A stretch of 64,000 bases of DNA from contig NC_134027.1 in the NCBI RefSeq assembly GCF_964204645.1, positions 27,020,485 to 27,084,484 on the forward strand, read 5' to 3'. The notes under the pieces were generated by a model. That model ran no database searches, had not been told where the DNA came from, and saw only the letters and a list, made by a program, of their open reading frames with translations. This DNA is from Tubulanus polymorphus (taxonomy: Eukaryota; Nemertea; Palaeonemertea; Tubulaniformes; Tubulanidae). Within the stretch, counting starts at the first letter, position 1; every line of letters begins with the position of its first letter. Below, in pieces: positions 31,401 through 63,799 of the stretch. Made by a program: the position numbers and the translations under genes.

Positions 31401-34400
31401 TCCAAAATCAAGGGAACGTGATTAAGTGAATGAAAATATTATTTTATACGACTGATGTCTTGAATTGCTTTTTTGTCCAATGGACACGGGGCGATGTAGA
31501 TATTCTGTGGACTCGGGGGAGCAGGGTCAAAATTTAGCAATTTTTTATGGACACCTTTTTTGGACGGCCTCTTGTAAAACTTGCATATTTTGTATCAAAT
31601 TGTAAAAGTTTGGTTGTATTGAGAATATACATGTTGTATAGTATCTGTATGAATTGTATTGTATATTGAAGGTACGCACATTTGACGTATATGAATCATT
31701 TTCGGTTTTCTAAATTGAACAACGACGATGAATTCGGATATTATTTAGCGTCTCTTGAAGCCGCTATTCAACACGTAACAAGCGGTAAATTAATCGACAT
31801 CGTTCCTGGAGCTGTTAATCCACAGGTATTAAACAAAAAAACTGATTCAGTCACTGAATCATTCAGTCATTGATTAGTCGAGAAGATACGCAATATCTGT
31901 GTAAGATATGAGGGAAATCCCACAATAATTCAGCCACAAAAGATGTAAATTTCTAGAGAAAAAGGTTTTCATATTGGAGCAACATGCCTAATGATAGTTA
32001 ATTGTCTTTAGTCCAAATGTTGCTCAAATATAAAAACACTTCTTTTTAAGAACTTTGATAATTTATTTCTTAAAATGCTTTACGTTAAGAACAATCACAA
32101 AGCTCTGTAAACTAGACACAATTAATACATATGAAATTAATTTACAGCTTAACATCTTTGGCTGAATTATTGTGCGATTTCTGTCATTTTCATTATCGTA
32201 ACTAACATTATTGATTTGTTGTTTATACAGAGATTGACGGTTATACCTACGTTAAAATCAGATACGACTCAAACGGATCAGTTTGAAGTATCCGGAGAAG
32301 TGAGTTCGATCGACCGACTATTCCAGCAAATTAAAGACGGAAACGCGATCGCCGTGAAATCGCTGATCAGAAAAAACCGTGAAGAATCGGCTGAAGCTAA
32401 AGTGAAACTGTGTCACCCGTTGTGTTCGTGCGATCGTTGCGAAGAATTATTGTCTAAAAGTCGTTCAGATCTCGAGACGGTGACTGCATTTTCTAGAGAT
32501 GATCGTGGATTTACAGGTAATGCTCAAATCGTGGAATCTTCATCGTCGCATTCATGAACTCGATATCATTTTGTGAAACTCTTTTTTCAGCTTTACACGT
32601 TTCGGCGTTATACGGACACGCTGATATAATAGAGATATTAGCTGAATCGGGAGGTGTAGTTAACGCTACTGATTACCACGGATCGACGCCTTTACACATC
32701 GCGTGCCAAAAAGGACATCAAAATGTTACGGTAAATAGTTAAATCATTTTGTACTGGTTTGTGTTGAGCTTAAGGCACCTATAGAACGCAAGAGAAGATG
32801 CCCCCAGAGCAATGGATAGATGATATCTGCTCCTGGGCAGGCGTCTGATGCCGAAAGATCAACTCGTCTGGTAGAGGATCAGCTTCAGTGGAGGCTGTTG
32901 ATAAATGATGTTTTTCTTGTCCGCTGAATATGTTCTATTGTTTGATGATGTATTGTTTATTTTAGTTGATGTTACTCGATAAAAAAGCTCAAGTTAATGC
33001 AGCAGATAATGATGGTAATACATCATTACACTTGTGCACAGCTAATGGACACGAAGATGTAAGGCAAATTTAACTGATTTCATTAGATTTTTTAACACTC
33101 CGTATCTTACATTGATTATGTACATATTGCTGGTTTTGTTTATATTCTAGTGTTTAAAAGCTTTAGTCTACTATGATCGAGCTAGCTTAGACGTGAATGC
33201 TGCTAATGATTTTGGAGATACAGCTTTACACCTGGCCGCTAGGTGGGGTTACTGTAAGTAGTAAATTATTTCATCCGCGATGATATATTGATTTAACGAA
33301 ATTTTCACTAAATCAAAATTCTAATATCTTATTTTCAGACAACATAGTTGAGATTTTATTAGAAAATGGAGCGTCAGTTGAAGCTAGGAATAGGAAGAAA
33401 TTAACACCGATACAATGTGCTCATAATGTGAATGTATCACAGTTACTCATAAAAACTGCTAAAGCGACGACTATTGAAGATAAAGTTGAAGTCCAACCAA
33501 CTCCGAAGGTACGAGATCCATTTATTGATTCAGTTTGACTGTAATTAAAATGAGTGAATATCAAAAATGTTTTAAACCTAGATTGTTTGAATGAACCGCG
33601 ACCGAATTTCCCAATTATGCACTTTGATTCAATTCTGTTAACTCGACCGCCGACCACACAACTATATCAGTACTTAGATTCCCGATTTCACAATCAAACT
33701 GCCTGTTTCGCTCCCGGCAGGTGCTGTGGGTTTGTAAGGGACAACAATAAAATAATTGAACGAAATTTACCAACCAAATAAATAACAGGAACAATCCCTA
33801 TTTTAAGATCAAAAGTTGAAACGAAACCGATTTTCAGTTGGGAACTGTTGAACTGGATCCTGTAAATTCAATATGATAGATGTTTTATTCTCTGATACGT
33901 AGGTAAATCACAGCGTACCGACGCCTATCTCTCCAGTTATTACTCCGACTACTCCGACGAAGAGACGCGTTTCATTAAGTTCTGCAGCTCGTTTGGAATC
34001 GGAGAAATTACGTTTTCCGCAGAGTCAAAAAATTCAGAAAATGTTAAGAGCAGTCGCAGACGGCGACGTGGAGATGGTAAATATTTCTGATCTGTTTTCA
34101 TGGAATGGATGAGGACTGGGAATCACTTTGTATTTGAAAACCTGGATGAGGAATCAACCATTTATTACCTATCCCTGCCCCCTGAGTAAATACATGGCTC
34201 AATGAATTCTTATTTTGCAGGTGAAATTTCATCTCGGTTGGTTAGAGAACGGTGATAGCGATGATGCTGACGAAAATATTGATCTCAGTAAAAGAAAGTT
34301 GTGTCATCCGTTGTGTCAATGTGATAAATGCATTCCATTACAGAAGGTAGGATGAGATAATGAATTAAAACAGCAACTACCGTTTCAGCTGACTGTGTCA

Positions 34401-36786
34401 GTTTCAAACTGTTAATCGATCCTCGTGATATTTTAGATGACGACGTCAGTAGCTGGTTCATTGACCGTCGATACGTGTAACAATGATGGTTCAACGGCTC
34501 TTCATATCGCTAGTCGTCATGGTCACGATTTCCTCGTTTTACTATTGATTAAACGTGGGGCTAATGTAATTGCTAAAACTAAAAGTCAGGGATGTTCACC
34601 ATTGCATTTTGCTTCGCAATATAACAAACCAAAGGTAAATATATATGTATTCATTTCAAATAAGTTCATTTTGTTTAACAGTTTACATCAATAACCTCTT
34701 CAAGGGTGGATTTAGGGACTGTTCCACCCCATCAAAATTTGAATGTGCCCTACAAAAATATGTTTCACTTGAAAAGTCAAATGAAGTGCCCATTCCAATT
34801 TCAAGGTCCACCCCTTCAAAGAATTCTAGATCAGCTCTTGCCCCTCACCCAGCCTGATACCAGGTTGTTTCTGTTAAATCTGCATTTTGACTCAGAACTA
34901 GTAAAAATGAATCCCAAATTGGTCAGTTGCTCAAAAGTTGGTTAAAGATAACTGAAGTCAGAGAGTCAACTATCCACTGGTTTACTCTATAACTCTAACT
35001 AACTGTTGAGTAACTGGCCCCTGGCCTATAGCCATACTCTCTATACCAACAAAATCGTAACTCACTGATCAGTGGTTGTCTGTAGTCGTTCGATGTGTTT
35101 TGTTCTGAAGGTGGTGAGACTGTTAATGAAGAGCGGTGCTAAAGTCAATGTAAAGGACAACAGAGGAAACACGCCGATGCATTTCGCTGCTATTAATAAC
35201 TGTATAGATGTCGTAAAAAGACTGATACACGTAAGTTCAAATATTCCGACACGTGAGAAATGTCAGAAACGTGAAAATACAAAATGTTATTGTGTTTATT
35301 TTATTACAGTACGGAGGAACAGTTAATCAGGCTAATATGAAAGGTAACACCCCTCTTCATGAAGCTGCTCGCTGGAATTATTTTCATATGGTTGAACTTC
35401 TGGTGAAAGAAGGCGCGTCGGTGCAGTGTAGAAATAAACAACATCTGACGCCTATGCAGCTAGCCCAGGTCAGTCATTTCATTTCACTCGTAGAATATTA
35501 GTAGAGTTAAGCATAGATATTATTAACGAATAGACAATTTCTCTTTTACAGAATGATGAAATAGTAAATTTGTTGGATAACGCTTTGATCGAACAATCGA
35601 ATACGGTGACTTCAAAAAATCAGATGTCAAGGTCTCCTATAAGTGTTAATTCAGCTGATAGTTCACCGGTCACAGGACGCGGTAAGATAACAATCTGGAC
35701 CCATTCCACTGTTTATCACTCAAGATCAGACTCCATGGTTTGAACACCGAAACTAGAGGGCGGCCAAACTCTAAATAGTGTCATCAGTAACAAATTGAAT
35801 TCTTTCTAGTAACATTTCATTGCAATATGATAGGAAATGTTCAAATTAATCAGAAATCAACAGTAAGACCCTCAGTAACATGCTTCATATTTCTGTATGC
35901 ATCAAACAAATCAAATCAGTATTTCTTATAGAATTGTAACATGTGCTGAAAATCATGAACAGTTGTCAGCTCTGAAGCTAATATGAACTTGTCATTCTTA
36001 GATAACTCAGCAGAACCAGGTCCCACTTTAAGCTTTCCTCTTTAGACATTTTCAATGATAGAATATTTTTCTAATTTAATTGTAGTTGGCCTGACTAAAA
36101 CGAAACGAATGAGTGTACGCGATCTGTTCGCTGCATTCGAAGATAAAGACTTGAAAAAACTGGAGACGTTGACGAAATCAGTTCGTAGTCATAGACGTGA
36201 AACGTTGAGACGTACATCGACTATCGATCGCAGCGCACCTCGTTTAGATTTATATTTCACTTCACCCGATTCATCAATGATTGAATCTACACGAGCTACT
36301 GATAGATTATCAACACCCGATGACGTTGATGTTGATGATGATCGGCCGGTGTTCTACGAAACTAAACAGCAAACTAGCGATACTAAAAACCCGACGGAAA
36401 ATGAATGGCCCAAACTTCCGATGGTGAAAGAACAAGAATTACACGAGATTAATGAAGATATGGAGAGAATTCGATGCGATTCTAAACCGGACTCTGAACC
36501 GTATTTAGTTGTGCCGTACGATACTCCTAGTGATAGTAGTCATATATCTACTGAATATTACTCGAAACAACTAACGACGACTAGTCAACATTCATCACCG
36601 GATGGCATTACTAACTGTCAATCAGAACAAACTCCTCCTCTTCCCATTGCTACCGTTACTTATCATAAAGATTCGCGTAGTGAAAACGTTCATATCGAAA
36701 CATCTCCCGAGAAAGAGAATGTTCACACAGATTGTTCAACACCGACTGATGACGATAAATTCTGTGATGTCGAGCAGAAAATGTGA
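28431..36786 (+). CDS. ANKRD27: VARP / ankyrin repeat domain-containing protein 27
   Basis: Endosomal protein; in vertebrates it is a Rab21 GEF, a Rab32/38 and VAMP7 partner, and binds retromer. Exons: 28431-28535, 28631-28750, 28880-28939, 29027-29195, 29283-29377, 29458-29517, 29959-30015, 30184-30326, 31092-31301, 31672-31825, 32231-32516, 32591-32730, 32966-33058, 33151-33253, 33339-33508, 33903-34076, 34221-34346, 34437-34634, 35111-35230, 35310-35468, 35552-35681, 36086-36786. All stay in frame: 1190 aa (human 1050). Order: conserved N terminus (YDEDITENKFF), VPS9 domain (about 245-370, with TDDLL and FGYYL at the GEF residues), zinc motif CHPLCSCDRC (452-461), first ankyrin block (about 485-640), zinc motif CHPLCQCDKC (741-750), second ankyrin block (about 760-925), and a disordered acidic/Ser-Thr tail longer than in human. 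The start is Met 28431 or 28434; an ATG-TCA-TGA mini-ORF overlaps it. Confidence 0.96.
29577..29880 (-). mobile_element. tRNA-derived SINE with L2-like 3' tail, in an ANKRD27 intron
   Basis: Read on -, the head has an A box TGTGGCCGAGTGG and a B box GGGTTTGAACCCC (29816-29827), as in Leu/Ser-type tRNAs. The body follows. The 3' end reads AAAAGCGCTCTGAGCAGCC then TAGCGCTATATAGG, resembling the AGCGCT..CTATATA tail of L2/CR1-clade LINEs. It lies between coding exons 29458-29517 and 29959-30015, antisense to the gene. Confidence 0.8.
30378..30667 (-). mobile_element. TTAA-flanked piggyBac-type MITE (family B, copy 2)
   Basis: TTAACCCTTTCAGTGC at the left and GCACTGAAAGGGTTAA at the right. It is inverted relative to copy 1 at 24620: its left end matches that copy's right end (CAGTGCTGACTAATCAATA). 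It has one copy of the internal GGTGCTGCCATCTTTC block and two ACACCG..CGGTGT palindromes. It lies in the intron between the 30326 and 31092 exon boundaries of ANKRD27. Confidence 0.8.
31378..31573. mobile_element. Fold-back element in an ANKRD27 intron
   Basis: GAGGGGCTGTCCATAAAAG-TGTCC on the left is mirrored on the right by TTTTTTATGGACACC and TTTTGGACGGCCTC. The ends are imperfect inverted repeats, with TCCAATGGACA in the middle. No coding frame. Confidence 0.55.
34921..35021. mobile_element. MITE family A, copy 2, in an ANKRD27 intron
   Basis: GGTCAGTTGCTCAAAAGTTG at the left matches the terminus of the 2064 element. The right end, AACTGTTGAGTAACTGGCCCC, is its imperfect inverted partner. 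More diverged than copy 1, and without a visible long flanking duplication. Confidence 0.65.
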
Positions 36787-37079
36787 GATTTATCTCGTTT
36801 TTGTGGCTTATCAAATGAGTTAAGTTACACTATGCAATTATAGTAGAATCACTCGCTGCAGTTAAATGAATGGCCTCAAATACATGTTATACAGTAATTT
36901 GAATCTCTCAAATTGATCGATGATAATCAATGATGTTTTATTTAATAATTATGAAAATGTTTTGTTGATGAATGATGTTTCGACTTTTTAATCATGAAAT
37001 GTTAAGTGCTATAAAGAAATTCATTCGATTTATTTGTATATGTGAAGCCAAACATATGATGTTACAATTTTTCACCAAA

Positions 37080-45233: not shown

Positions 45234-45240
45234 TATAAAA
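45234..45240 (+). promoter_or_regulatory. TOX: Candidate TATA box for the short TOX isoform
   Basis: TATAAAA lies 55 bp upstream of the ATG at 45289. A start site about 30 bp downstream would leave a 5' UTR of roughly 25 nt. Transcription could also begin further upstream; a long (TA)n run at 45045 complicates the choice. Confidence 0.4.
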
Positions 45241-45288: not shown

Positions 45289-48200
45289 ATGATGGATGTT
45301 AGTAATAATTGGTACATCGGACAGATGGGGTCCGGGTACCATCACCATCTCCACCATCAGCACCAGCAGCAGCAGCAGCAACAGGATTATCATCCTTCTT
45401 ATCAGTACTATAGAAAGGTAAGCTGTTCGATATTATTGTCGTGTATGATGAGGGAGGTTCCGGTGACTTCAATCTCTAAACGTCCCGTTAAAGCTGTCGT
45501 GTTTGTGTTGATAGTTCTTTCACTGTCAGAGACCATTCTTCTATAGCAGGATTCATACTCATCCTGAAAATCCTGGAAAAGTTATCGAAATTAGTATTTT
45601 TTTTTCCAAAGGCTTGGAAAAGTGTATTTGAAGCTATGAAAAAGCGGTCTAAAAATGATGGTCTTGATGATTATTTTCTCGTTGTTTCAATGCCGAAGAC
45701 CTATCATTTGTTTTTGTTAACTTTCAATTCTGCCTAAGTTAATATTTAAGCTCATACCTCATTTAGTAGCTATGGAACATAACATATTTATCCTTGGCGA
45801 GGTCTTGTTGTTCTGTCTTAGCGAATAAGTGTTTGACTCACAACCGAGAGGTTGTCGGTTCGAATCCTAGTGAATCTATGCAATTGGACTCTGGGCACCG
45901 AGAATCATCGATATGATGAAGGAAGGGATCAGAATAAGAGAAAAGGTTATAGAAGACTGCGATCAGTACAAACCCTGTTCACCGGGACGACTGCGATCAG
46001 TACAAACCCTGTTCACCGGGACGACTGCGATCAGTACAAACCCTGTTCACCGGGACGACTGCGATCAGTACAAACCCTGTTCACCGGGAATACTGCGATC
46101 AGTACAAACCCTGTTCACCGGGAACACTGCGATCAGTACAAACCCTGTTCACCGGGAACACTGCGATCAGTACAAACCCTGTTCACCGGGAACACTGCGA
46201 TCAGTACAAACCCTGTTCACCGGGAACACTGCGATCAGTACAAACCCTGTTCACCGGGAACACTGCGATCAGTACAAACCCTGTTCACCGGGAACACTGC
46301 GATCAGTATAAACCCTGTTCACCGGGAACACTGCGATCAGTACAAACCCTGTTCACCGGGAACACTGCGATCAGATCAGTACAAACCCTGTTCACCGGGA
46401 ACACTGCGATCAGATCAGTACAAACCCTGTTCACCGGGAACACTGCGATCAGTATAAACCCTGTTCACCGGGAACACTGCGATCAGTACAAACCCTGTTC
46501 ACCGGGAACACTGCGATCAGATCAGTACAAACCCTGTTCACCGGGAACACTGCGATCAGTATAAACCCTGTTCACTGTCGATACAAAAACATAACACTTT
46601 CAAAGGATGTTGAGTAACAGTGTTGCAGGTGTTATCTATGTCCAAAACAAGTCTTTAATCATGAGACTGGTCTTAACTTGTTAGATTGACCAATAGAACT
46701 TAGATGATCTTATATTTTGTCTTAAGTTGGAACTAAGTCTGTGACTGTGTGATGTTATATCTGAAATTTGACTTTGCAACTGGGTCCGAGGTACCAAAAG
46801 ATAGTCCCTAGAGGATGTCCGCAACATTGTGGCATTATCATTTCTTAAACTTATAAATTTTGTATTTTTATATTGTGTTGGAATTATTGTAAAAACACAG
46901 AATTTGTATCGATGAAAATAATGTGTGAAAATCTACGACGACGAAAACGTTGTGTTTTGTGTTTAATTTTTTCATGTGATGCTCGTAATTTGCGTTATTT
47001 TTATTCAGATGGGTTTCTGCTGTCAGTGAAAGGTATAATTACCCTACATCATTAATACACTTATAATTAACCTTTTAACTGTAATTACTGCCTTCAATTC
47101 AACATTACCGGGTTAATTAGATAGAATTGGAGCAATGCTATGATTAGTGATAAAATTAGACTGGATTCGATCAGAGATATTGCGTGTTGATTGTTGCCCG
47201 GAGGGGTTTAGGACAGCTGTCATTCGCGTATCGTCAATATCTTATTATAACTCATTTAAGGCCATTAAGAGGCTTTTTCGAGTTATCGATATCAGTAGAA
47301 GAATCAGAGATCTGTAACTGCAGTTCGGTTTTGAAGTTACAGAGATTTACAACTTTTGATCATGAATCGCGCTGATGGTATCCATCGTGATGTGACGCGG
47401 TGTATTGTCATTATAATCTATTCAACCTCTTGGCATATTGCCAGTTAGAATAACATCGTGATGTCAAAGCGGACAAAAGGTTTTTTGTGCTGCGGGTCTC
47501 ATATTTTTTCTGCTCTCGAGTTTTTGTTTTATATACATGTTCTGTTGATCTAAAATGAACTCATCTGATTTATGAGTTTTATGCCTCTTGTCACAGAAAA
47601 CTCATTATAAGAATTGATTGTCTCTGACTCCGGCAATTTGACTTCAATTGCGTATTTGATTTTTCCTCAAATCTTAATGAGTAAAATAGCGTCTATTTGT
47701 TACAGTATTGACATTGATCTGTTTGTCTCGAGATCTCGACTATTAATCTCTCAATATCCTGAAATTTCTTGCATCTATAAATCAAGTTTATAATGTAATT
47801 ACGCATTGATGTTTGGTGAGCCAATTTCACAAGAGATCAATCAATCTTTTGTTATCGTTAAAATGACAAGAATGTATGAATTATTCCGCAGAAGATTAAT
47901 TCCATTTTTGTTGAATTGTTTTTGAACATTTAGTTCGTCTTTGTCAACTCTAGCGTATTCTAGATAATTTTTTGAAAGATGATTTTTACTCTTCGGTTGT
48001 TTGTAGACCAATCGTACCCCTTGTTAAAGGTTTGGTTTCATTGCACGGAAATTCAAAATAAAACTCACCCAGCGAGGAGACGTGAGGGTAAATTGATGAA
48101 GTCATCCCAGGGGGGCTTTGAGGGTTCTGGAATACCGTCAAGCTTTGTGTGTGTTCCTCGGAGATGCCCCTAAATCCATGGATTTGACATAAAGCGCCCT

Positions 48201-51200
48201 CATTTGGCATGATTTGGCGCAGTAAGTGCCCCTGAAAACCACAAGTTCGATGTGAAGAGCCTTTTTTTGCCGTGATTTGACATAGAAAGTGCCCTCCCCC
48301 ATAATAGTGAGCGCCCTTATACAATTCGGAACCCCATCGAGATAGACCCCCTCCTGGATCAGATTATAACTGATAGATATTTGTTGATAGTTATTTTCGA
48401 TACAATCTTTACGTCGGATTATTACCTCAGCTCTCACCATTAATTGTATAATGCAACATTTTTCACTAAATGCCCTTTTCCCCATTTATGGATACTGCTA
48501 GTAAACTCCATTACGGATCTCCCCCTCGTTGTCCATTAAGGAATTGCGAAAGCATTTGATGTATTATATTTGAATGTAGTTGTCAGATTTATGAAGATCA
48601 ATGTCTGTTGTGTATGTAATGTCGGTTATTAATGATAATGTAAGCGTATTCAGAGTTCGGATCGTAGATCTGTCAGTTTACCAGAAATCTCATGATTTAT
48701 CAGATATTTATTGAGTAGGAAACATGTGGTAAACCTGGTAACAATCCGACCGACCAACCGTCCGACCGACTGTCCGACAAAATGAATGTGAAGTTAAATT
48801 AGAGAGAGAGAGAGTTGTGTGCGATGAGTTCGGATGATGAATACTTTATGAATTATTGTGTAAGCATCGTTTATCAAGGGAACATTCGTCATTATGTGAG
48901 ATTAGATATAAATTGTCATGTTGCCGATGCAGGTAATGGTTTAGATTTATTCGGTATCTGCTGCTGCTACTGCTGCTACTAGAGTACCTGTTATATAATA
49001 CAAGATGTCTACGATGTAGCTGAGTCCTAAACACTGATAAGACTGTGTAGGTGCTGACACAGATTGACGATTGCACCTGAACTTATGATGTCATGAATCC
49101 AGGTCTACACGAAATTGTTTCTGAACTTATGATGTCATGAATCCAGGTCTACACGAAATTGTTTCTGAACTTATGATGTCATGAATCCAGGTCTACACGA
49201 AATTGTTTCTGAACTTATGATGTCATGAATCCAGGTCTACACGAAATTGTGTCTGAACTTATGATGTCATGAATCCAGGTCTACACGAAATTGTGTCTGA
49301 ACTTATGATGTCATGAATCCAGGTCTACACGAAATTGTTTCTGAACTTATGATGTCATGAATCCAGGTCTACACGAAATTGTGTCTGAACTTATGATGTC
49401 ATGAATCCAGGTCTACACGAAATTGTTTCTGAACTTATGATGTCATGAATCCAGGTCTACACGAAATTGTGTCTGAACTTATGATGTCATGAATCTAGGT
49501 CTACACGAAATTTTGTCTGAACTTATGATGTCATGAATCCAGGTCTACACGAAATTGTGTGTATTTTCATATTGTTTATATCAGGTGACCACCTCTGGTC
49601 AATAACAACATAACCCTAGGTTTGGCCTGGCTAGGGTTAGTAAACAACAGTAACCCTAGGTTTGGCCTGGCTAGGGTTAGTAAACAATAGTTATCCTAGG
49701 TTTGGCCTGGCTAGGCTTAGTAAACAACATAACCCTAGGTTTGGCCTGGCTAGGGTTAGTAAACAATAGTTATCCTAGGTTTGGCCTGGCTAGGGTTAGT
49801 AAACAATAGTTATCCTAGGTTTGGCCTGGCTAGGCTTAGTAAACAATAGTTATCCTAGGTTTGGCCTGTGAATTTGCATATAAGGTGACCAGCTGTAGAC
49901 CAATCAGAATGCTATGGTTATTCAGCCCTTGCCACTTGGCCTGTTTATTTACTTCAGATGACCTATACATTTTGACTATAAGAATGATATTAATGACAAA
50001 CAAACATGCAATTTGACAGCAGTATCGATGAAGCCTGCCTGCGCTGCACGCTGCTCGCTGGTCTCATGGTTGAATTCCTCTAGTCTAAGGGCTACTTATG
50101 ATTAATGTTCTAATTACATTGTCCAATGTTGACTCACAGTCAACTGATTCTAATTGAATGAAAATTGGTCCACTCTACATCATCAATTACTTTAGATGTT
50201 TGTATAAACAAATTGGCATAAAACTGATGAATTCATTTCATTAGCGCGGAGAATTTAGTGTCAATAGTCGTAGTGTTTATTCAGGAACAGCAAGTACCGG
50301 TCCCTAGAGTTCACTACACATTACTAATATGATTACACTGTTTCCTGGATAAAGGAAATATTTGATAAAACATGTTTAAACTGATCTTCAGTTTCTACAT
50401 ATTCTCATCATATCATTCTCTGTCTTATTCTCATCTCTCCCTCTTTCCCACTCACTCTCTCTCCATCTCCAGTCTCTCCCTCACTCCCTCCCCTCACTAA
50501 ATCTCTCTCCATCTCCCTCTCTCGCCATCTCCATCTCCCTCTCTCTCTCCCTCTCTCTCTCTCTCTCCTCTCCCTATCTTCCTCTCTCTCTCTCCCTTGG
50601 CTCTGGTTGCATGAATAAATTTAGTTTTAAAATTGGTTTTAATGCAGATATAGATGAAAGCTATGAATTTTATGACATTATCCTCGTGCACCGACTCTCA
50701 GGTTTGATTACAGCGTAATTATTCGCTATTGTGATGTCTGGTTGTTTGAAGTATTTCAGGCTTTGATCATCTCTGTAGCCTCCGGGAATTGCAGCTTATA
50801 CACCATATATATATAAATACATCTTGAAAGTACTGAAAACAGTTTCACGTGATTTTACTCGAAACTTTCATGAAAACAGTATATTAAGTACTATGAATGT
50901 AAGTTTAGATTTTATTTGGAATTGTGAGGTTTCGTTACAGTAAGGTCATAATTTCTTAACAAAATCAGTTAAACCTGTTTTATGCCTGGCTAACAAATTG
51001 TCCTTTATTCATAAATTCTTGTTCAAATCCACCAGTGTCCAGTGCAGGGTTGTGACTAGTCATACAAATTACTACTAACTACTAATATGGCCTTTCACTG
51101 GTCTTTCACTGGATTTGTATTGAGTTGCCAAGAACCAACATAGTCTTAGGCTGGTCTCAGATCTAAGTGTCTATAACAGGGCTGTGATATTAATTCATTC

Positions 51201-54200
51201 TGGGCCGTTTATTTGTGTTTATCCCAGTGGTCATTATTCTATAGAATTGTTCAATAACACACGATCAATGATTGCATTCAAATACTAAATAAATAATTCA
51301 TTAGAATTTCAACTCAGAGTGTTAAAATGGAAGTTGAATTCAGATCGATGTTTATAAGAAGAGGTTAATTAGTAATTGAAAACGTGGTTTGTTCTCGTAA
51401 GCTCGGGATGCAAATGAGATAAGAACTATTGAATAAAACCTGACGACTTCTAAACATCGATAACATTCTCATATTTATTTTCATTTTTCATTAATGAGAA
51501 AATCTGATCTATACAAATTGAAGAAACGGTGTCGGTTTGCGCGAAGGATCAGCGGTTCTCTATAAATTATTTGTTTTTATAATCGAGGTTTGATTCTTGT
51601 GTCGTGTTTACGAACAATAGAAGTCATAATTAGAAGCTTTATTTATCGCTGAATCGCGATGAAAATGTCAATGAATTTCTATGATTTAATTGTGAGTTTT
51701 TGTTACTCGTAACAAACGTTTGAATGAAGAAACTAAGATGACCGACGCGACGATGCGATGATTATATTCTTCATCGATATTTGATAGAGTTTCCACTTAT
51801 TTAAATCACTGAGTCATCGACGATATTCTCATTCTCAATTACTGCAACGATTCACTAAGATTGTGATACTCTTCCTCGACCAGCTGAGCGCCACCGAGGA
51901 CAGTTTCAGCGGGTTTAAGGTTTCCCCCCTCTACCCCGCTGAGCGCCACTGAGGACAGTTTTAGCAGGTTTAAGGTTTCCCCCTCTACCCCGCTGAGCAC
52001 CACTGAGGACAGTTTTAGCAGGTTTAAGGTTTTCCCCCTCTACCCCGCTGAGCGCCACTGAGGACAGTTTTAGCAGGTTCAAGGTTTTCCCCCTCTACCC
52101 CGCTGAGCGCCACTGAGGACAGTTTTAGCAGGTTCAAGTTCAAGGTTTTCCCCCTCTACCCCGCTGAGCGCCACCAAGGACAGTTTCAGCAGGTTTAAGG
52201 TTTTCCCCCCTCTACCCCGCTGAGCGCCACTGAGGACAGTTTTAGCAGGTTTAAGGTTTCCCCCCTCTACCCCGCTGAGCGCCACTGAGGACAGTTTTAG
52301 CAGGTTTAAGGTTTCCCCCTCTACCCCACTGAGCGCCACTGAGGACAGTTTTAGCAGGTTTAAGGTTTCCCCCTCTACCCTGCTGAGCACCACTGAGGAC
52401 AGTTTTAGCAGGTTTAAGGTTTTCCCCCTCTACCCCGCTGAGCACCACTGAGGACAGTTTTAGCAGGTTTAAGGTTTCCCCCCTCTACCCCGCTGAGCGC
52501 CACTGAGGACAGTTTTAGCAGGTTTAAGGTTTCCCCCTCTACCCCACTGAGCGCCACTGAGGACAGTTTTAGCAGGTTTAAGGTTTCCCCCCTCTACCCC
52601 ACTGAGCGCCACTGAGGACAGTTTTAGCAGGTTTAAGGTTTCCCCCTCTACCCTGCTGAGCACCACTGAGGACAGTTTTAGCAGGTTCAAGGTTTTCCCC
52701 CTCTACCCCGCTGAGCACCACTGAGGACAGTTTTAGCGGGTTTAAGGTTTTCCCCCTCTACCCCGCTGAGCACCACTGAGGACAGTTTTAGCGGGTTTTA
52801 GGTTTTCCCCCTCTACCCCGCTGAGCGCCACTGAGGACAGTTTCAGCGGGTTTAAGGTTTCCCCCTCTACCCCGCTGAGCACCACTGAGGACAGTTTCAG
52901 CGGGTTTAAGGTTTCCCCCTCTACCCCGCTGAGCACCACTGAGGACAGTTTCAGCGGGTTTAAGGTTTCCCCCCTCTACCCCGTTGAGCACCACTGAGGA
53001 CAGTTTCAGCAGGTCATCAACATTTTTGGGGCATTCCGGAATCTATAGGGGCGAGGTGGACCCGGTGGACTCCCCTCGAATCAGGGTTTGGATATAGACC
53101 AGAGAACTGCTGCCTCTGGGATCGGAGCCGATGAAGGACCTGTGACCGATCACTGGGCCACTACGTCAGCCTTGTGCATTGTTTATCTTCATTGAACACA
53201 TGGTTTTAATCGAGTACCTGAATGTATCTCGTATTCAACGGATCAACTTATTATAACAGCACATGTTAATAGCATCATCGGTATCATTGTTACCGGTTTC
53301 GATTGTTTGTTTCAATTTTCAACAGTTCCATCGTGATAGGATACCTACCGACCGACCATCCACGGCTATCGCCATCGCCGTGATGAAAAAAAAGAAACTT
53401 TATGCTCTAATCTGCACATGGTGTATAAAGACTAACATTATAGTAAATCAACTTTTATAGCTCACGTTTACCCCTTAACGCCATATGTCTTCTGCATTGT
53501 ATAAAAAATGCCATAAGTTTTTTGATTAGGATCTGTTCGGTGCAGCTATCTGTGTCTGTTTTACTCTAATGTTTGTTTAAGTTACGGTGTATCACACAAT
53601 GATTTACTAAATTGACACAACTCATGATTATGCATCGTAATTATCCGACATTCGTTTGTTTGTGCGCTGTAAATTTTTCGATGAAAATGCAAAAAAGTCA
53701 TGACAATTTAACGATATGAGGTTTAGTTATTGCATTATGAATGGTTCATTGTACGCGATGTACATTAACAATCAGTGAATTTATCTCGTGACTCCGCATC
53801 ATTATCATTATGTTCATCGTAATTGATCTGAGCACCTGCATAGTACGAATACCAGCCGGTTTATACTACTGGGGCTTATGGGGTTTATAGTGTGGGGTTT
53901 GTGGGGTTTATAGTGTGGGGTTTGTGGGGTTTATAGTGTGGGGTTCATAGTGTGGGGTTTGTGGGGTTTATAGTGTGGGGTTAATAGTGTTAAGGTTTGT
54001 GGGATTTATAGTGTGGGGTTAATATTGTTGGGGTTTATAGTGTGGGGTTTATAGTGTGGGGTTTATAGTGTGGGGTTTGTGGTATTTGTAGTGTTGGAGT
54101 TTGTGGGGTTTACAGTGTGGGGTTTTTGGGGTTTATAGTGTGGGGTTTGTGGGGTTTATAGTGTGGGGTTTTGACTTGTATTTGTCTTGTTGCGATATGG

Positions 54201-57200
54201 ATTTATAATTTGATTTATGATCATTTACCGCCGTTGTTCGAAATTGAAAACTTTCTAATTCCCGGGATTTATATCATTATACTAATTAGATTAAACCTTT
54301 AAATGCGAAACATGATTTATTGAAATATTATTGAGATGGATTTATGAATGTAAATCCTACAATCAATCAAATGGCTGTCTGGAATTTCCCTGTGGACAAT
54401 GAAGTAAATGAATGCAGTAGTTTGTGATGCAGTTTGTATCATGTGTTTATATCATATGAATGACCCTCATGCGTCATGTATAAACAGCTCTTCTGAATTA
54501 TGATATTTTCACGTTTTATCATATCATTTATTTTCTCACTTTTTCTCACGAAATGAATATTGATATATGTATTTAGTTTGTTTGCACCAGATCTCGAGCC
54601 GCACATTCTAAAACCCTTTAACCGAACATGCTTGAAGCTTGATGTAGTTTTCTTATTGTTATTTTTTTACAGGGTATTTTTAACGATTTGGGTCTTGAAT
54701 CAAGTCGTAGAACATCATCTTTCATGGCTGGGGAGGTATGTACATACACTACGCGACACTAGAGAACGTTTATTTGCTAGTTGGATTTTCAACTCGAAAA
54801 CTCAATTCACACATCCAACTATCAGATAAATGATTGCCTGATTTGGTTGAAGGTGTTGAGGATCGGGGCACTGTTTCACGTGTTATTATTATCTTTCTCT
54901 AATAAATGCACACTCGCCTGTTCTATATATTATGATTCATAGGATGTAATATACAGCAGAGAGTATCCTTGACTCGCTGCTGTCATTTACGCAGATGATC
55001 ATTACTACAACCATTTCTGTTGATCTTTGACATTTTTGTCGCTTTAATCACCTCGTATAAGATCATACAACATCATAAATCTCCATTTACTTAAACATGA
55101 AAAATGCAGTTTTTGATAATTTTATGTGTAAAATCTCCTGTTTTGAGTCTTACGTCTCCATGCAGCTGCTGCTGCTGCTGCTGCTGCTGTTCACTGATTG
55201 ATTTATTTTTATACAGAGCTTTGATGGAATTACATTTATTACAACACTTTTGATGTTGCTTAATTAACCGGTAAATGTCCATGACAATATGAAAGGAGAT
55301 TGTTATTTCGTGGAAAAATTGGATCAATTTCAGCAAATTAATTTTTCCGTTTTTGCCTCGGTTTTGCCTCGGGGATTTTACCTGTTAATACACGATCGCA
55401 ATAAACGAACCTTTTGTAGATGAAAAATTATGGATGAATTTTTCATCGTATTTCATTATTTTCACCGAGTTCGATCTTCATGCGATGATTTTTGTACGTT
55501 CTGTTAATTCGATTAAAAAGTTCTCGAATCGAAATCGAAACTCGAGGAAACTTTAGATAATATTTTAATGATATTTATCGAATGCTCCGAGAGTGAATAT
55601 CGTCTCGGCCTTTGTTAATACGCAGATGTTCGAAACGCTCGTTGTCAGTAGCAACCAACTTAGATAATTCGCGATTAGCCAGATGTTCGGAATATAATGG
55701 GTTAATGGACGGATATTTTATGTATTCATTTTTTTTTCCCATTAATGAAAATGAAATATGAGAAATCGATAGGTAACAAAAATGTTGCTTTACTAAGCAT
55801 AAGTTATGAATGTAGGAACTAAAGCGTGGAACCGAACTGAGAACCAATAGTCATTGAGCACATAGGAGTTAGTTGTCATCTTACACGCGTCGTCGTTTCG
55901 ACGACGTATACCGTCGACCTTTTCTCATTCGCGGTTTTTCATATTCGACAAAAACAACAACGGAATTGTTGGAATTTGTAGCCGAACAGAAACCAACAAC
56001 TGCTGCCGCTACGAAACACGATTCGTTTGTTGTATCATCTACAGATTTATAATAATTAGTTGTCTGTGGATGAAATGAGCGTTACAGCAGTCGTCTACTC
56101 TACTGTACGGATATACAGAATGTCAGTATTAATTGCTGATTGTTTTATGTATATTTGATCTCAGCGGATTCTAACGTACGTCGATGATGATTTGAAACTG
56201 AATGAATCTCGGATTCTTTTTCAACCGGGTGTTTAATCTGATGCATTGTTTAGAACTGCAAACGACTGTTCTGCGACTGTTCTGCTATTTACGCGTAAAT
56301 GACTACTGTTCTGCGATTGATTATTAACGAAATTTATTTCAATAACAATTTGATTATTCGACATATGCCGATGACGAACGTGGTATATCTACGATACTCG
56401 TGATATATAATAACACTGTAATACACCGCGTATATGTGTTCTTGTACATAGCTGGATTAGATACGTTTTTAGAGCGAGCACGTATATAAAAACCGGTGTA
56501 CTTATCTTCATATATTTAGTCTGACCTTGAATGTGTTTTCGAGAGGTTATCAGTAAGATCAATAATTATGGCCCCTCGTCGTAAAAGAAAACGAAAGATT
56601 GTCAAAAAACCTTCAACAGCCGCAGCAGCAGCAGCAGCTGCAGCAGTAGCAGGGGTGGATAGTACCAGTGGATACAGCACTGAGGCAGTGGATAGTACTT
56701 GTGGATATACTGCTGAGTTAGTGGATGGTACGGGTGGAAATACTGGTGGAAACAGTACTGAGACTGTGGATAGCACAGGTGGAAATACCACTGAGACATT
56801 GGATAGTACTGGTGGAAACAGTGCTGAGACAGTGGATAGTACATGTGGAAATACTACTGGGTTAGTGGATAGTGTTGGTAGAAACAGTGCTGAGATAGTG
56901 GCTAGTGCTGGTGGAAACAGCGCTGAGACAGTGGATAGTACTGGTGGAAACATTGCTGAGATAGTAGATAGTACTGGTGGAAACATTGCTGAGATAGTGG
57001 ATAGTACTGGTGGAAATATTGTTGAGATAGTGGATAGTACTGGTGGAAACATTTCTGTACCTGGTGGAAATACTGAGACAGCGGATAGTGCTGGTGGAAA
57101 TACCACTGAGACAGTGGATAATACTGGTGGAATTACCAATGAGACAGTGGATATAAGTGTGGAATCTAATGGTCCACATGATAAACCAGAGTTAGAGCAG

Positions 57201-60200
57201 TTTAGGCCGACGACCAGTACTGATAAAACTGATATATCTATTAACAATACACAACTGTATCATATCAACAATGAATACAGTGAATTAAACTTACGCAAAC
57301 ATTCCATGAATAACGAAACGATCTGCGAAATATCAGAATCTGCCGAAACACAAACGAAATTAACCGAATTTGAAAGTTCGGAAAGGAACTATCGCGCGAG
57401 GGACGAGGTCTGTTGTCGGAACGCGACTGATTCTAAAAATACCGATAACATACTTCAAAATCTTAACATCCTCGCGTTGAATGATTCAGGTTTAATTCCT
57501 GCGAGGAATACTGGATCAAACGACGATTCGAACTCGAACGAGATATTCATGCGTTCTACAAACTTAGATTTAGCCGATGGTAACATTAAATTACTGATAT
57601 CTGTAATGAAAACATCAGAAGACGATTCATCTTCGTCGAATCATCATCAATCTATGGCGAGATGTAAAACTAATCCTGACAAAATAATCAACTCACAAAA
57701 TGCGATTAATAAAACTGAAGTGAATTGTATCGAACGCGGAGATGATAAAATAGCCGTAGGCGAAACATTGAGTAAGAGCTATAATAAAATAAAGCAACAT
57801 TTCCCTCAGGTAATTGATAATCATCGTGATGATACTTATCTCTTTTTATTGTTTGCAGTTTATAGGTTTTTTATACGTGTATAAAACAATCAAATCCATC
57901 ATTGAAATTTTAGACGGCATTTTTTTAGTTCGTTCAGCGATGTGTGATAAGTGTATTTGAATATTGGTTGAAAACTAGGATTTTTATCATCGGGATTCAT
58001 ATTAACAACTCGCATTCATAAATCACATCAATTATGCTTAATGTCAGTTTGAAGTATATATTGTGTTTCTCAAGGAGATGTTTAGTTGAATTGATAGAAC
58101 CTATTCCCGAGCTAGAGCTAATGAGCCATCCCCGAACTAGAGCTACCTGGGTGATAGCCATCCCCGAACTAGAGCTACCTGGGTGATAGCCATCCCCGAA
58201 CTAGAGCTACCTGGAGTATAGCCATCCCCAAACTAGAGCTACCTGGGTTATAGCCACTGCGGACTAGAGCTACCCCAGTTAATATAGTCATCCCGGACTA
58301 AAGCTACCCCGGGTTATAGCCATCCCAGACTAAAGCTACCCGGGTTATAGCCATCCCGGACTAAAGCTACCCGGGTTATAGCCATCCCGGACTAAAGCTA
58401 CCCGGGTTATAGCCATCCCGGACTAAAGCTACCCTGGTTATAGTCATCCCGGACTAAAGCTACCCGGGTTATAGCCATCCCGGACTAAAGCTAGCCCGGG
58501 ATATAGTCCTCCATGTTTAAGTAGTTATAGTTATATATGTTTTATTTTGTATTGTTTCAGACGTTTCACGCACCAAGTTTCGGAGATGAAGAATTTCAGA
58601 TTCCTCTCATTTTACCCGAAGACAATCTATCATCGTTTTCACAAGGTTCATCAGTTGCGCCCCCTGTGAGCGATTCGTCGAGTTACGCCGCGACATGTCA
58701 GATGTTGGATTCGTCGTCGTCGTCGTACTCGGAATCGCGCATGAATCACGACGATATTCAACCAAAATTTCCACCACAAAATATCGATATTCCGGATATA
58801 ACGGAAACGAACTATAATCAGAATCAGAGCGTTACGAATACGGTCGGTACATCGACGTATTTACCGATGGACCAATCACTGAACTCGATACAGAACGTGA
58901 CATCACCACCGGGTAGTAATCAAACATCACCCGTTAGAGCAGCAGAAAGTGGTAGCAGCGATAGTGATGACTTACCCTTATCACGGGTATGTATACCTCA
59001 TATCATACCTTCAACCCCAACTCGATTCCACCCTCACTAGATTCCACCCTAGATTCCACCCCCACTCGATTCTATCCCCTGTTCTGCTATTCTGGATTCC
59101 AATTCACTAGGATCTAGAAAAATTTGATAAGGGGGCGCTCTTTGAGTAAAAAGAGATCTATAGTCACAGGAACCCACGAAGCAGGAGGTCTGGAATGTCC
59201 TCCTCCAGAAAATTTGGAAAAATAGATTCTTTTAGATGGCATTCAAAATAATTATTTTAAAAAAAATGAATTCTTTTCTTCCAAATCTTCTGGAGGATGA
59301 CACCCCAGACCGCGATGTGGTTTTTCAACAACACTCAATTGAAAAAAGGGGGACACACGCCCTGCTGCGCCCCCTGGTTTCAAGGATAGATAAATCATTG
59401 AAGTGAACGCAGTGCAACCTCGTTATAACAAACTCAGATACAACTCTTCATCAGATATAACAGAAATAAGTAAAACAATTTCACTAATTTCATACTGGAT
59501 ATAACAAACTATCGGTTTTAACGAACAGATTTTCTGGTCTCATGTTGTTCGCTGTAACGAGGTTGCGCACTGTATAGATAGGAGTGATGGGCGTGAGTTT
59601 AATTTGATCGTTCAAACAATAATCAACTGAACAACTGAACCTGTATATGAACAGTACTTGTAGAAATTCAATATACACTAGTTACTGGTTCATGTTTTAC
59701 TAAATCATCGAACAATAACATTTCAGATAAAAGACCTTCGTATCTTAGCAACCGTATTCGTTTATTGTCAGTTATAACAATGTAACTCGGTCACCGCTCG
59801 CGTTCGATACAATTATTAATTATCGGAGCGCTTGAATTTTTTGACATGAATATCAAATGGTTCGTTCGTAATAAACTCTTTTGTTGCGGAAACAATTCAA
59901 AATATCATTTGCCTCCGATAGAAATATCGATCGTGATAATAATAGTAATAATAATCATAATAATGAGTAGTGTTTGATATTTCATGTTTGATCACGATCT
60001 GTTCTATTCAACGGTTCGCACACGTATCTGAATGTAAAGTTCATGCGTAGATTAATAATTGAATAATTCTGTCAGATTCATGAATCATGAAGTTTTATTC
60101 ATTTCGTTGTATTATTAGTTGGCGACTGGTTTGAAGAAAGCTCCGGCTGCAGTCGGCAGAAAACCGAAAGTTGCTCCGAAAAAACGAAAAAAGAAAAAGG

Positions 60201-63200
60201 ATCCGAATGAACCTCAAAAGTAAATCTTCGAATTGATACCGACAACACCAGATGGCGCAACAAAACACTGGGTTACTCGTGGTGAAAATCAGTTCATTTT
60301 CAATGAAATTTGAACATTATTTTTTAGTTTCCAAATCTGGAAATTATCAAACGAGTCATCGGATTGATATACGATTCCCTTTCTCTCTCATTATATGGTA
60401 TTGATTTCACTGAAAATTGATTTATTAATCAGAAAATTTGACTCGAAGTTTATTGAAATGTAGAAGAAATTGAAGCGCAGTAACCCAGTGCCACTAGCGA
60501 CACCTGGGGGATTATCGCTGAATCCTCGCTTCCCTCAGTAGCCTTGCCGGTATCCCATTGATGAGAAGTTTGACGAGAAATTTGTCAAAATGAATAAAAT
60601 CTGATTTAATTTTATGTATATATTTCAGACCGGTTTCCGCGTACGCGCTGTTCTTCAGAGACACACAGGCCGCGATTAAAGGTCAAAATCCGAACGCTAC
60701 GTTCGGGGAAGTTTCTAAAATTGTAGCTTCAATGTGGGACAGTTTGGCCCCCGATAGTAAAGAGGTAATTCATCTATAGTCATATAACTTAGAATAACAA
60801 TCCTATCACGATTAATGAAATATCTTATTTGTTTTGTAACAGTTTCTAAATCACATCAAATGTCACGATGTAAAATTCCGAAACTATTGTACCACATTTT
60901 TAATTTCATCAGTCTTCACGCTGTCATCTTATTTCTAAATTAAATCGTGTAATTTCATCGTATTTCAGAACTATAAGAGGAGAACTGAAACGGCTAAGAA
61001 AGAATATCTACAGAAATTGGCAGCTTATAGGGCAAGTTTAATCTCTAAGGTCAGTGACAATGTTCTGTGTTGTCACAGTGTCTGCATTTAAAACTCTATT
61101 ACTGCTTGTGCTTGTGGTGGAAATGGGTTCTTTAAATTCTGATTCAATGTATCGGTTCATTCAACAGAAGTGTTGCCTTTACACGAAGCTGATTGTCTCT
61201 GATTATCAATTACAGTGATTCACATATGACTACTCGGTCCATTGTGTATAGCTCCTCATAGGGGCCGATCCACGGACCACCATCGAGGGTAGCACAACTT
61301 ATGATAAAAAGGGCATTCTAAAATATTGAAAATCTGCTTTTTGGTGCAATTTCCAAGCGATTAAAGTCCTGACACAAAGTGCTTTCTAGCAAATTAACGA
61401 CATCGAGATGTAGTTTCCAGGGGCGGGCGTAGGAAAACCCTGTTAGCCTAACCGTGGTTAGTGGCTTATCCGTGGTTAGGCTAACTAGATTGAAATAAGA
61501 GGCCGCACGAAGACAATAGGTACCTAACAGCGTTTTCCTGCGCCCGCCCCAGGCAATAAAGACAAAATCTTGAAGAATCATGTATTTTTGTTTGCAATTA
61601 TCTACCTCGTCTTGTAAATGTGCCATTTTCTACTTTGGGAAAAAATGAAAAAAAAGGCACGAGATTTTCACGACGGTAGCACGTGCCACAGATCTGAATC
61701 CGCGCCTGCCTCTCGTTTAATGAGTTTGTATTTTCTGTTATTACAGCAGTCGCCTTTAGACGTATTAGAGAAACCAGCTGCGAAACCGGTTCAAATAACA
61801 AACACGTTGAGTACGAAGACTTATCCACTACGTAGCAGTCAACGAGCCGTTACTAATAATGATATGTCTCCAGTTCATTCTTCTTCATCTTCATCTCCTG
61901 CCCAGAGTTTATCACCTATTCATATGTCACCGACTCAACCTGAATTATCGCCTAAACTAAACAATGTAAGTTTTCAAGTTGCAAGGAATGGTATAACCGA
62001 TATTTCTATACAAATCTATCTGATATTACTATATGAAATAGAACCTCGTAACAATGAACTTCAGGACACCAGAAAATCTGTTCACTAAAACCGATAGTTC
62101 TATACACGGTGGTACCTTGTTACAACGAACTTCAGTAGTCCAATAAATCTGTAGGTATTAACTGATATTACTATATGAAATAGAACCTCGTTACAACGAA
62201 CTTCAGGACACCAGAAAATCTGTTCGTTATAACCGATATATAAAATACATAAAGAGAACTCTTTATGTATTTTTGCCGATATACATAACAAACGCAGTTA
62301 AAATCTATTCATTCTAATTGATAGTTAGTCGTGCCTGATCTTCCTAACGTTCTATTATGATTTATAATTTCAGGATTACCACGGAAATCACGTACACGAC
62401 AGTCCCGATCATACCGGACGACCTCATAATTTATGTACACGTAATGGTTGTCAGAATATAGCAGTTGGTAATACAGGATGGGATAATGAATACTGTAGCA
62501 ATGATTGTGTAGTTACGCATTGCAGGTGAGATATACTTTATTCACACCACACTAAACTCATTGTTTAAACAGGTGTAGGTCGACTTGTAATTGGTTGCAA
62601 TGTGACACAATTGGTTACGAATGGCAACATAGGTTGACTGCAACGTGATCATCAGCAACAATGTGCAACTAGTCTCTCAGTTGCAAGAGTAGCTTCGCAA
62701 AAAGAATAACATGTAGTTATTTTGCAAGACCATGTAGATTGATGGATATTTGCGATCCACGCTGACAGTCACAGTGAATCACATTGCAACAAGTCTGTGG
62801 CAGTTACAAGACCGACCGACCCTCACCTTTAGTAGTCATTCTTAAAACATACACGAAACTTTGCTAATTTTTGCATACCGGGAAAGTGGCTAATTTTGTA
62901 GCTCTTTTTCCTTTGAATACCTGTACTTTATGAATAACCAGGGTGGCTACTTAATCTGGTAATCAAAGAAAAGTGTGGGAATTTTCTTTTCCTGGGCCAT
63001 GGAAATTTGTTGAGATTGCCAGATCGAAGTCAAAGTTCTTGGATTCTGAGCAGATCTCGTCAGGGAAAACAAATCACATGTCAGGGAATAGCTGGGGAAT
63101 TGTTCACCCTGAAGACCTGTTACATGATATTAAACACTGTGTATTTGATATAGTTTGCGTGTGGTTTATTACAGAGATGTATTTACTGCGTGGGTCGTAT

Positions 63201-63241
63201 CCAGACAGCAGAGTACTAGTAACTACATGCAAGTCAGTTAG
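45289..63241 (+). CDS. TOX: TOX-family HMG-box transcription factor (short isoform)
   Basis: Nuclear HMG-box regulator, the invertebrate counterpart of TOX, TOX2, TOX3 and TOX4. Exons: 45289-45417, 54673-54735, 58561-58986, 60119-60219, 60629-60764, 60969-61049, 61747-61965, 62374-62525, 63175-63241. All phases match: 457 aa. The N terminus is His/Gln-rich (polyQ about 30-36). The family motif [17 protein letters not shown] (about 60-76) resembles TOX4 FLSGAETFHTPSLGDEEF and bridges the 54735/58561 junction, supporting both exons. A Ser-rich region follows, then a Lys-rich nuclear signal and the HMG box (about 234-312, from [20 protein letters not shown] to AAYRAS). The C terminus carries a CX4CX14CX3CX4C cysteine module (406-435), [20 protein letters not shown], as in TOX4. 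Intron 1 is 9.3 kb and rich in minisatellites. An alternative first exon is at 56568. Confidence 0.94.
45800..45955 (+). mobile_element. tRNA-like SINE head abutting a minisatellite
   Basis: TCTTAGCGAATAAGTG (weak A box), an anticodon-arm-like CAACCGAGAGGTTG, and a perfect B box GGTTCGAATCC (45857-45867). The 34-bp minisatellite begins directly downstream, so the array may have grown from the SINE body. Confidence 0.5.
45955..46575. repeat. 34-bp minisatellite, about 18 copies, in TOX intron 1
   Basis: Unit CTGCGATCAGTACAAACCCT then GTTCACCGGGAACA. Early copies end GGGACGA, one ends GGGAATA, and the rest end GGGAACA. A 5-bp ATCAG insertion (GATCAGATCAG) recurs in three units. The unit has no stop in any + frame, so long open frames run through it; these are not genes. 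Confidence 0.95.
46576..49077. other. TOX intron 1, no feature of note
   Basis: AT-rich intronic sequence. Around 48060-48370 there are degenerate repeats of the type CATGATTTGGCGCAGTAAGT, probably an old transposon. A CTG-rich imperfect microsatellite lies near 48960. No coding exon is seen. Confidence 0.45.
49078..49561. repeat. 44-bp minisatellite, 11 copies, in TOX intron 1
   Basis: Unit CTGAACTTATGATGTCATGA then ATCCAGGTCTACACGAAATT then GTTT or GTGT. Copies are almost identical; the last positions alternate between GTTT and GTGT, and one copy has a TTGT variant. Confidence 0.95.
49600..49872. repeat. Minisatellite of about 40 bp with self-complementary units, about 6.5 copies
   Basis: Unit AACCCTAGGTTTGGCCTGGC then TAGGGTTAGTAAACAACAGT. 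Within each unit AACCCTAG and CTAGGGTT are inverted repeats. Variant units read TATCCTAGG. Confidence 0.9.
50390..50600. repeat. CT-rich low-complexity tract
   Basis: A polypyrimidine run of CTCTCTCC/CATCTCC modules. The minus-strand Arg/Glu/Gly frame through it is an artefact. Confidence 0.85.
50601..51880. other. TOX intron 1, no feature of note
   Basis: AT-rich non-coding sequence with no repeats or conserved coding segments that I can see. Confidence 0.4.
51885..53014. repeat. 54-56 bp minisatellite, about 20 copies, in TOX intron 1
   Basis: Unit ACCCCGCTGAGCGCCACTGA then GGACAGTTTTAGCAGGTTTA then AGGTTTCCCCCTCT. Length varies through the C-run and the T-run. Minus-strand frames give a Leu/Ser/Gly/Glu repeat that switches frame between units; not coding. 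Confidence 0.95.
53866..54172. repeat. G/T-rich 23-bp minisatellite in TOX intron 1
   Basis: Unit TTTATAGTGTGGGGTTTGTG + GGG with frequent shortened copies (TTTATAGTGTGGGG). The + strand carries clusters of three to four G, and C-rich complementary runs lie on -. Confidence 0.9.
54736..56482. other. TOX intron sequence upstream of the alternative promoter
   Basis: Contains a (CTG)n run near 55164-55190 and a CpG-rich patch at about 55885-55920 (ACACGCGTCGTCGTTTCGAC). The last several hundred bases are likely the promoter region for the 56568 exon. No coding exon is seen. Confidence 0.4.
56483..56490 (+). promoter_or_regulatory. TOX: TATA box of the alternative TOX promoter
   Basis: TATATAAA 78 bp before the ATG at 56568. 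A start site about 30 bp downstream (near 56515-56520) fits a first exon with a 5' UTR of about 50 nt. Confidence 0.55.
56568..57809 (+). CDS. TOX: Alternative long first coding exon of TOX (basic, poly-Ala, 11-residue repeats)
   Basis: One open exon of 414 codons ends at a CAG/GTAATT donor in phase 0 and joins in frame to the TOX exon at 58561 (HFPQ then [12 protein letters not shown]), giving about 807 aa. Order: a strongly basic nuclear-signal-like start ([15 protein letters not shown]), a run of nine Ala, about 14 repeats of an 11-residue unit ([11 protein letters not shown] type; 33 bp in DNA, so always in frame) to about residue 200, then a non-repetitive Asn/Ser/Glu-rich segment. If unspliced, the frame ends 25 codons later at 57884. 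The length of the open frame in AT-rich DNA, the TATA box, the good start context (ATTATGGCC) and the phase all favour a real exon. A separate gene cannot be excluded without transcript data. Confidence 0.65.
58090..58505. repeat. 31-32 bp minisatellite, about 13 copies
   Basis: Units CATCCCGGACTAAAGCTACC then CGGGTTATAGC, and earlier variants with CCCCGAACTAGAGCTACCTG. The array ends about 55 bp before the acceptor of the TOX exon at 58561. Confidence 0.9.
59128..59385. mobile_element. Fold-back element in a TOX intron
   Basis: AAGGGGGCGCTCTTTGAG on the left and GCCCTGCTGCGCCCCCTGG on the right are imperfect inverted ends. Inside, GAGGTCTGGAATGTCCTCCT then CCAGAAAATTTGGAA is mirrored by TTCCAAATCTTCTGGAGGAT then GACACCCCAGACC. 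Confidence 0.6.
59410..59572. mobile_element. pogo/mariner-type MITE in a TOX intron
   Basis: CAGTGCAACCTCGTTATAAC at the left mirrors GTAACGAGGTTGCGCACTG at the right. The CAGT..AACCTCGTTATAACGAAC end is typical of Tc1/mariner-pogo superfamily MITEs, and TA follows the right end. About 163 bp, with ATATAACA modules inside and no coding frame. Confidence 0.7.
60254..60505. mobile_element. Fold-back element directly after a TOX exon
   Basis: AACACTGGGTTACT at 60264-60277 mirrors AGTAACCCAGTG at 60479-60490. Inside, TTTTCAATGAAAT pairs with ATTTCACTGAAAA. It starts about 35 bp from the 60219 donor. Confidence 0.55.
61420..61550. mobile_element. GC-ended MITE in a TOX intron
   Basis: GGGGCGGGCGTAGGAAAACC at 61420 mirrors GTTTTCCTGCGCCCGCCCC ending at 61550. 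CTGTTAG and CTAACAG continue the arms inward. A second internal pair, AGCCTAACC..TGG and GGTTAGGCT, is nested at the left. No coding frame. Confidence 0.7.
62014..62245. repeat. Two to three tandem copies of a pogo-MITE-like sequence in a TOX intron
   Basis: ACTATATGAAATAGAACCTC then GTTACAACGAACTTCAGGAC then ACCAGAAAATCTGTTC occurs at about 62026-62085 and 62168-62225, with a more diverged copy between (near 62117). CCTCGTTACAACGAAC resembles the end of the 59410 element. Confidence 0.6.
62526..63174. other. TOX: Last TOX intron
   Basis: The first part has several GTTGCAA/TTGCAAC modules (about 62590-62830). No additional exon is seen. Confidence 0.5.
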
Positions 63242-63799
63242 TTGTTGAGAGCAGTGAGATATAGATCAGTCCAGTCATCGTGAATCATGCGTCTTATATG
63301 AAATAAATTTGCTTTAAACGCGCGTAGAACAATGAAATATAAAAGCGATCATAAATATCTAAGTTTGAATGGTGTTTCAACTGTGTTAAACCTCACGCTT
63401 TTATTCTACTATTCGTATCTATCTCATTTTGTTCTTAAAATTTGTTACTTAATAATAATAATAATAATAATGATGCATTTTAACTGATGATACACTGAAT
63501 ACGCAGTGAACCTGTATTTGATACGGTATACGACGATGAAATGGATCCTGTCATATTACTGGTGTGATTATTGTCAACAGATGTTCGAACGTTTGAAATT
63601 ACACTCGTAAAATCACTATAGGACCTGTATATTACTGACAGTATCTAATGAAGGCTTTAATTGAATATATATGAATCCTGTATAATAATAAATGTATCGA
63701 CGATTCCTTTGTTATTATTCAATTTAAATGTACTGGAAACTGTGAGCGTTTTACGCTTCTCTTGTATAGTTGTCTTTCTTTCTGTATAAATCAAATAAA
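63242..63799 (+). terminator. TOX: TOX 3' UTR with polyadenylation signals
   Basis: After the stop at 63239-63241 the sequence is AT-rich, with an (AAT)n run near 63452-63470. AATAAA occurs at 63687-63692 and at 63794-63799. The second is followed by GTTTCAGTGTTGTTG, a plausible downstream GU-rich element. Confidence 0.65.

Follow-up and report, generated by a model that had tools for sequence, protein, structure and literature searches.

A 414-codon open frame in an intron of the Tubulanus polymorphus TOX gene, a probable alternative first coding exon

The TOX gene of Tubulanus polymorphus carries, in the intron between its second and third exons, an open frame of 414 codons (56568-57809, plus strand) that on balance we read as an alternative first coding exon with its own internal TATA promoter. 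The frame, its splice donor, a phase match with the downstream exon and a coding signal in its non-repeat tail are all present in the sequence. All positions refer to the window, the 64-kb stretch of DNA that was analysed.

The TOX gene and its intronic open frame

The gene occupies the plus strand of contig C3 between about 45.2 and 63.3 kb. A profile search identified its HMG box (Pfam HMG_box, 44.4 bits against a cut-off of 25.4), and among solved structures the box was closest to TOX 2co9 (1.3e-21; runner-up 1.2e-8), in agreement with the original prediction that this is TOX. Exon 3 (58561-58986), which is common to all forms, follows a phase-0 acceptor, TTGTTTCAG/ACG, and carries 5′ of the HMG box a TFHxPSxGDEEF stretch like that of the vertebrate TOX-family consensus. 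The C-terminal part presumably resembles that of TOX4.

Two exons are predicted upstream of exon 3. Exon 1 (45292-45417, MDVSNNWY...) lies downstream of a TATAAAA at 45234, 55 bases 5′ of its first ATG, and exon 2 (54673-54735), with 21 codons ending in MAGE, was placed by splice sites and length without a strong match. Downstream of exon 3 are predicted exon 4, with a basic stretch and DPNEPQK (60119-60219), the first part of the HMG box (60629-60764, recognized by Pfam HMG_box and 2co9) and its second part (60969-61049), an exon at 61747-61965, an exon with the cysteine-containing C-terminal part (62374-62525) and the last coding exon with the stop (63175-63241), which is followed by AATAAA at 63302. 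Together with exon 3 these make seven later coding exons, which encode 393 residues in agreeing phases, and predicted exons 1 and 2 contribute 63 residues with an N terminus starting MDV, which gives a predicted short form of 63+393 = 456 aa if the second of two neighbouring ATGs is taken as the start. A short start of 64 residues, as first proposed, is obtained from the first ATG and one of 63 from the second, because exon 1 has the two side by side. Vertebrate TOX also has a short N terminus that starts with MDV.

Searches of the organism's own genome (267.8 Mb, 77 contigs) with exon 3 found no second TOX copy at E up to 0.1, although one could still lie in sequence absent from the searched contigs. 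A further HMG match, at C1:24898486, covers the same portion of the domain but was rejected as a second TOX: its best structures were of the HMGB1 and SSRP1 types, TOX was absent among the 26 matches listed, and it gave no alignment to the TOX exon of the window.

Other genes share the window. Exons resembling the MTG/RUNX1T1 (CBFA2T) family were recognized by eye at 20200-23200 on the plus strand, about 22 kb upstream of TOX, and a MYND finger within this gene (22831-23148) was confirmed by Pfam. In human, too, TOX and RUNX1T1-family genes lie on the same chromosomes, and the proximity of the MTG-like gene and TOX may reflect an old linkage. Between the two lie exons of an ankyrin-repeat gene (32500-36800, plus strand; Pfam ankyrin at 34437-34691).

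The intronic frame is open from 56520 to a stop at 57882-57884 and has an ATG at 56568. From stop to stop it measures 454 aa, the longest among the frames of at least 70 aa listed for the window; next come its own antisense (247 aa) and a frame at 36046-36783 (246 aa), for which no Pfam match was found. From the ATG onward it consists of a basic start and a poly-Ala tract encoded by a CAG-type triplet run (56568-56654), 14 units of an in-frame 33-bp minisatellite (56655-57146) and a non-repeat tail of 221 codons (57147-57809); beyond the donor it continues for 24 codons and a stop (57810-57884). The exon has the TATA box, basic start, poly-Ala and roughly 14 repeats that the original prediction had described, and the phase-0 donor at 57809 joins in frame with the conserved exon at 58561, again as proposed. 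The joined product is predicted to be 414+393 = 807 aa long, as opposed to 456 aa for the short form. Structure prediction without relatives gave the segment a mean pLDDT of 34.2, a value that fits disorder but is uninformative when obtained from a single sequence.

Coding signal in the repeat and the tail

The useful evidence for a coding frame comes from the non-repeat tail and not from the repeat, as openness of the tail goes beyond chance and that of the repeat alone does not. None of 20000 Markov sequences of the same composition were open in that frame over the 221 codons. When 5000 overlapping segments of the window presumed to be non-coding were compared, none matched the codon-position bias of the tail, and of 3000 simulated open frames 2 did; the bias was alike in the two halves of the tail (17.2 and 16.7). 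For the repeat alone, the expected number of stops was 0.55, and 54% of simulated mutation histories were stop-free. The repeat unit is stop-poor, and an open frame across it therefore proves little.

The array comprises 12 units of 11 residues, one of 15 and one of 17. With a unit of 33 bp and two odd units that are longer by 12 and 18 bases, all changes in length are multiples of three. The encoded segment is acidic and T/S/G-rich, with 26 D/E versus 1 K/R in 164 residues. Changes among the 12 full units, with the two longer ones left out, were synonymous in 16 of 55 cases versus 15.5 expected (sd 2.8), and 6 of 26 distinct changes were synonymous; purifying selection on the encoded unit was not detected in these 12 units, a weak test given how few they are. 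Three central units are near-identical (32/33 and 30/33), which makes recent gain of units plausible. A survey of human proteins (PMC3995336) reports that repeat units are seldom gained or lost quickly, although such change is less uncommon where the unit has 10-15 aa.

The original prediction had the whole exon growing from this minisatellite. Such an origin fits 492 array bases of the 1242 but does not extend to the 663-base tail, which, its first few bases aside, belongs to no tandem array seen. Minisatellites also crowd the introns of TOX, at 45952-46575, 49077-49560, 49615-49868, 51883-53014, 53858-54171 and 58124-58506, with base periods of 34, 44, 40, 55, 23 and 31 bp, respectively. None of these six periods is divisible by three, in contrast to the 33-bp array of the open frame. 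A further TOX intron holds three diverged tandem units of 71 bp (62022-62239).

Comparisons with known sequences concerned the tail and the rest of the frame separately. The best Pfam match of the tail was PDU_like, with an E of 0.1 that is below the cut-off of that family; no solved structure matched up to E 10; and in the genome the tail had, apart from itself, just two weak hits, at E 0.106 and 0.143. The head and repeat matched 16 other places in the genome at E up to 0.1. The best of these (1.2e-7) has 11 stops inside, and those in open frames include one on C10 (4.2e-7, 178 aa) and one on C6 (7.2e-5, 49% identity, 835 aa); all 16 are taken as low-complexity matches. At the DNA level, 57000-57600 matched this locus only (3 rows, all within the array region, in one assembly with a single copy of the locus).

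Codon usage hardly separated the frame from non-coding sequence (P 0.031; 0.064 for the synonymous part only). The measure was trained on 18 of 25 kinase loci, the 7 with stops inside their matches having been dropped, and the comparison leaves out TOX exon 1 and the 61748/61749 exon rows. It was set aside as a discriminator, because exon 3 of TOX is rated about as low, as are several of the kinase exons.

These observations bear on whether the frame is functional at all. A stop-poor minisatellite might simply adjoin a frame that is decayed or open by chance, possibly with low-level splicing. The repeat is open by nature, and the 34-bp array of intron 1 likewise yields an open stretch in each of the three forward frames (145, 203 and 206 codons); the changes among repeat units appear neutral at the protein level; and the codon usage is weak. 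Against these points stand an open tail of 221 codons with position bias and a strong donor in matching phase, and we consider a non-functional intronic frame improbable. From its letters, the frame looks like real coding sequence.

Splice donor, promoter and competing readings

Splice sites were scored with textbook weights. The donor at 57809, CAG/GTAATTG in phase 0, scores 5.14, higher than any other donor of the open frame and higher than all 751 intronic GTs. In the window as a whole, 15 of 3931 GTs on the plus strand (itself included) and 11 of 3627 on the minus strand score as high. With both strands counted, donors of at least 5.0 have a frequency of 0.00027 per base, which corresponds to 0.12 phase-0 donors expected by chance in the frame. 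Donor and phase thus support the predicted in-frame splice of the 414-codon exon to shared exon 3.

The same donor weighs against another reading, in which the frame is a nested gene of its own, terminating at 57884 and not spliced to TOX. The frame does have a start context, a TATA box and a stop of its own, and TATAAA, a minor polyadenylation-signal variant, is found at 57880. Yet the strongest donor of the frame lies 72 bases 5′ of the stop codon, and there is no AATAAA or ATTAAA in 57885-58560, a weak point, the chance expectation for that interval being no more than about 0.34 for each motif. We regard a separate gene as highly improbable.

Upstream of the start codon, a TATA-box-like element, TATATAAAAA, occupies 56483-56492, 83-85 bases 5′ of the ATG. 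Its TATAAAA at 56485, 83 bases before the ATG, is 1 of 18 on the plus strand of the window; at 18 per strand, about 0.014 would be expected in any 50-base stretch. The motif is locally denser, at 53500, 56485 and 57880, and no start is predicted at 53500 or 57880. The context of the start codon at 56568 is favourable (A at -3, G at +4), and TATAAAA also precedes the ordinary first exon (45234). A second promoter, as originally proposed, is made plausible by the TATA box and start context; at the same place, however, an acceptor-like site at 56519/56520 would allow an internal cassette exon, a reading that the original prediction had overlooked.

This acceptor-like site (56500-56519, ending TAG/T, score 0.21) overlaps the place of the proposed transcription start. 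An internal exon beginning at 56520 would be in phase 0, and with the donor at 57809 it would comprise 1290 bases, or 430 codons, with phase 0 at both ends. Transcription from the ordinary promoter would then insert 430 residues between exons 2 and 3 to give a TOX of 886 residues. Exon 2 ends in phase 0, the length of the cassette is divisible by 3, and the in-frame stop TAG at 56517-56519 would double as the acceptor AG. The predicted exon-4 acceptor (60119) is also TAG/T and scores lower still, -1.31, and the exon-4 donor scores 0.45; splice sites of this gene are not uniformly strong. On the other hand, the score of the 56519 site is equalled by 17% of 548 intronic AGs, four AGs in 56300-57100 outscore it, all of them off-phase, and 7 of the 8 predicted TOX acceptors are CAG with scores above it. 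If the exon were a cassette, the TATA motif and the favourable context of the ATG would both be coincidental. Insertion of such an exon is unlikely, although quite conceivable, and we favour the alternative first exon over it.

As an alternative first exon, the frame would be transcribed from an internal TATA promoter in the exon 2-3 intron, with transcription starting near 56515 and translation at 56568, and its donor at 57809 would be joined to the exon 3 acceptor at 58561. Everything encoded from exon 3 onward, with the HMG box and C-terminal part, would be retained in the product, and a 414-residue low-complexity segment would take the place of the 63-64 residue start, in the order basic head, poly-Ala, acidic T/S/G-rich repeat and N/S-rich tail. 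We infer, beyond the promoter and the transcript, that the segment is probably disordered and that it would act on nuclear retention or on the activating N-terminal part, not on DNA binding. The basic head could aid nuclear retention. In vertebrates, the N-terminal part of TOX-family proteins is described as activating (PMC3842248, PMC4324787), so that the likeliest effect would be a shift in activation or in the choice of partners that leaves DNA binding as it is. A bolder proposal is that an exon confined to one lineage, driven by a promoter of its own within a conserved regulatory gene, gave TOX a disordered, length-variable 414-residue segment whose repeat number tunes the activity of the chromatin regulator within a species; this we hold to be improbable.

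Relation to known TOX forms and coding minisatellites

If expressed, the exon would be a clear case in which a conserved chromatin regulator acquired a long alternative N terminus, built in part by an in-frame minisatellite, and this way of forming disordered sequence would be testable via repeat length. At present it is a good gene prediction and not a new mechanism, the variant being of an ordinary kind. The HMG box is common to the gene described here and to the TOX family (TOX, TOX2, TOX3, TOX4). The 414-residue repeat-rich N terminus of the predicted long form has no counterpart in the family descriptions consulted, and titles and abstract beginnings of the TOX literature, among the matches listed, contain no long repeat-rich TOX N terminus.

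Alternative N termini are nevertheless known in the family. Between the human TOX3 variants the difference is confined to a short stretch and does not run to hundreds of residues. Two splice variants of human TOX3 with distinct predicted N-terminal sequences are reported in PMC4324787, and to that extent the forms predicted here are alike, as splice variants that differ at the N terminus. The repeat itself has counterparts in coding minisatellites (in-frame VNTRs), which likewise have a short unit that is a multiple of three, with neighbouring units near-identical. In Daphnia magna, multiple-of-three repeats are reported to occur preferentially in coding regions (PMC2763877).
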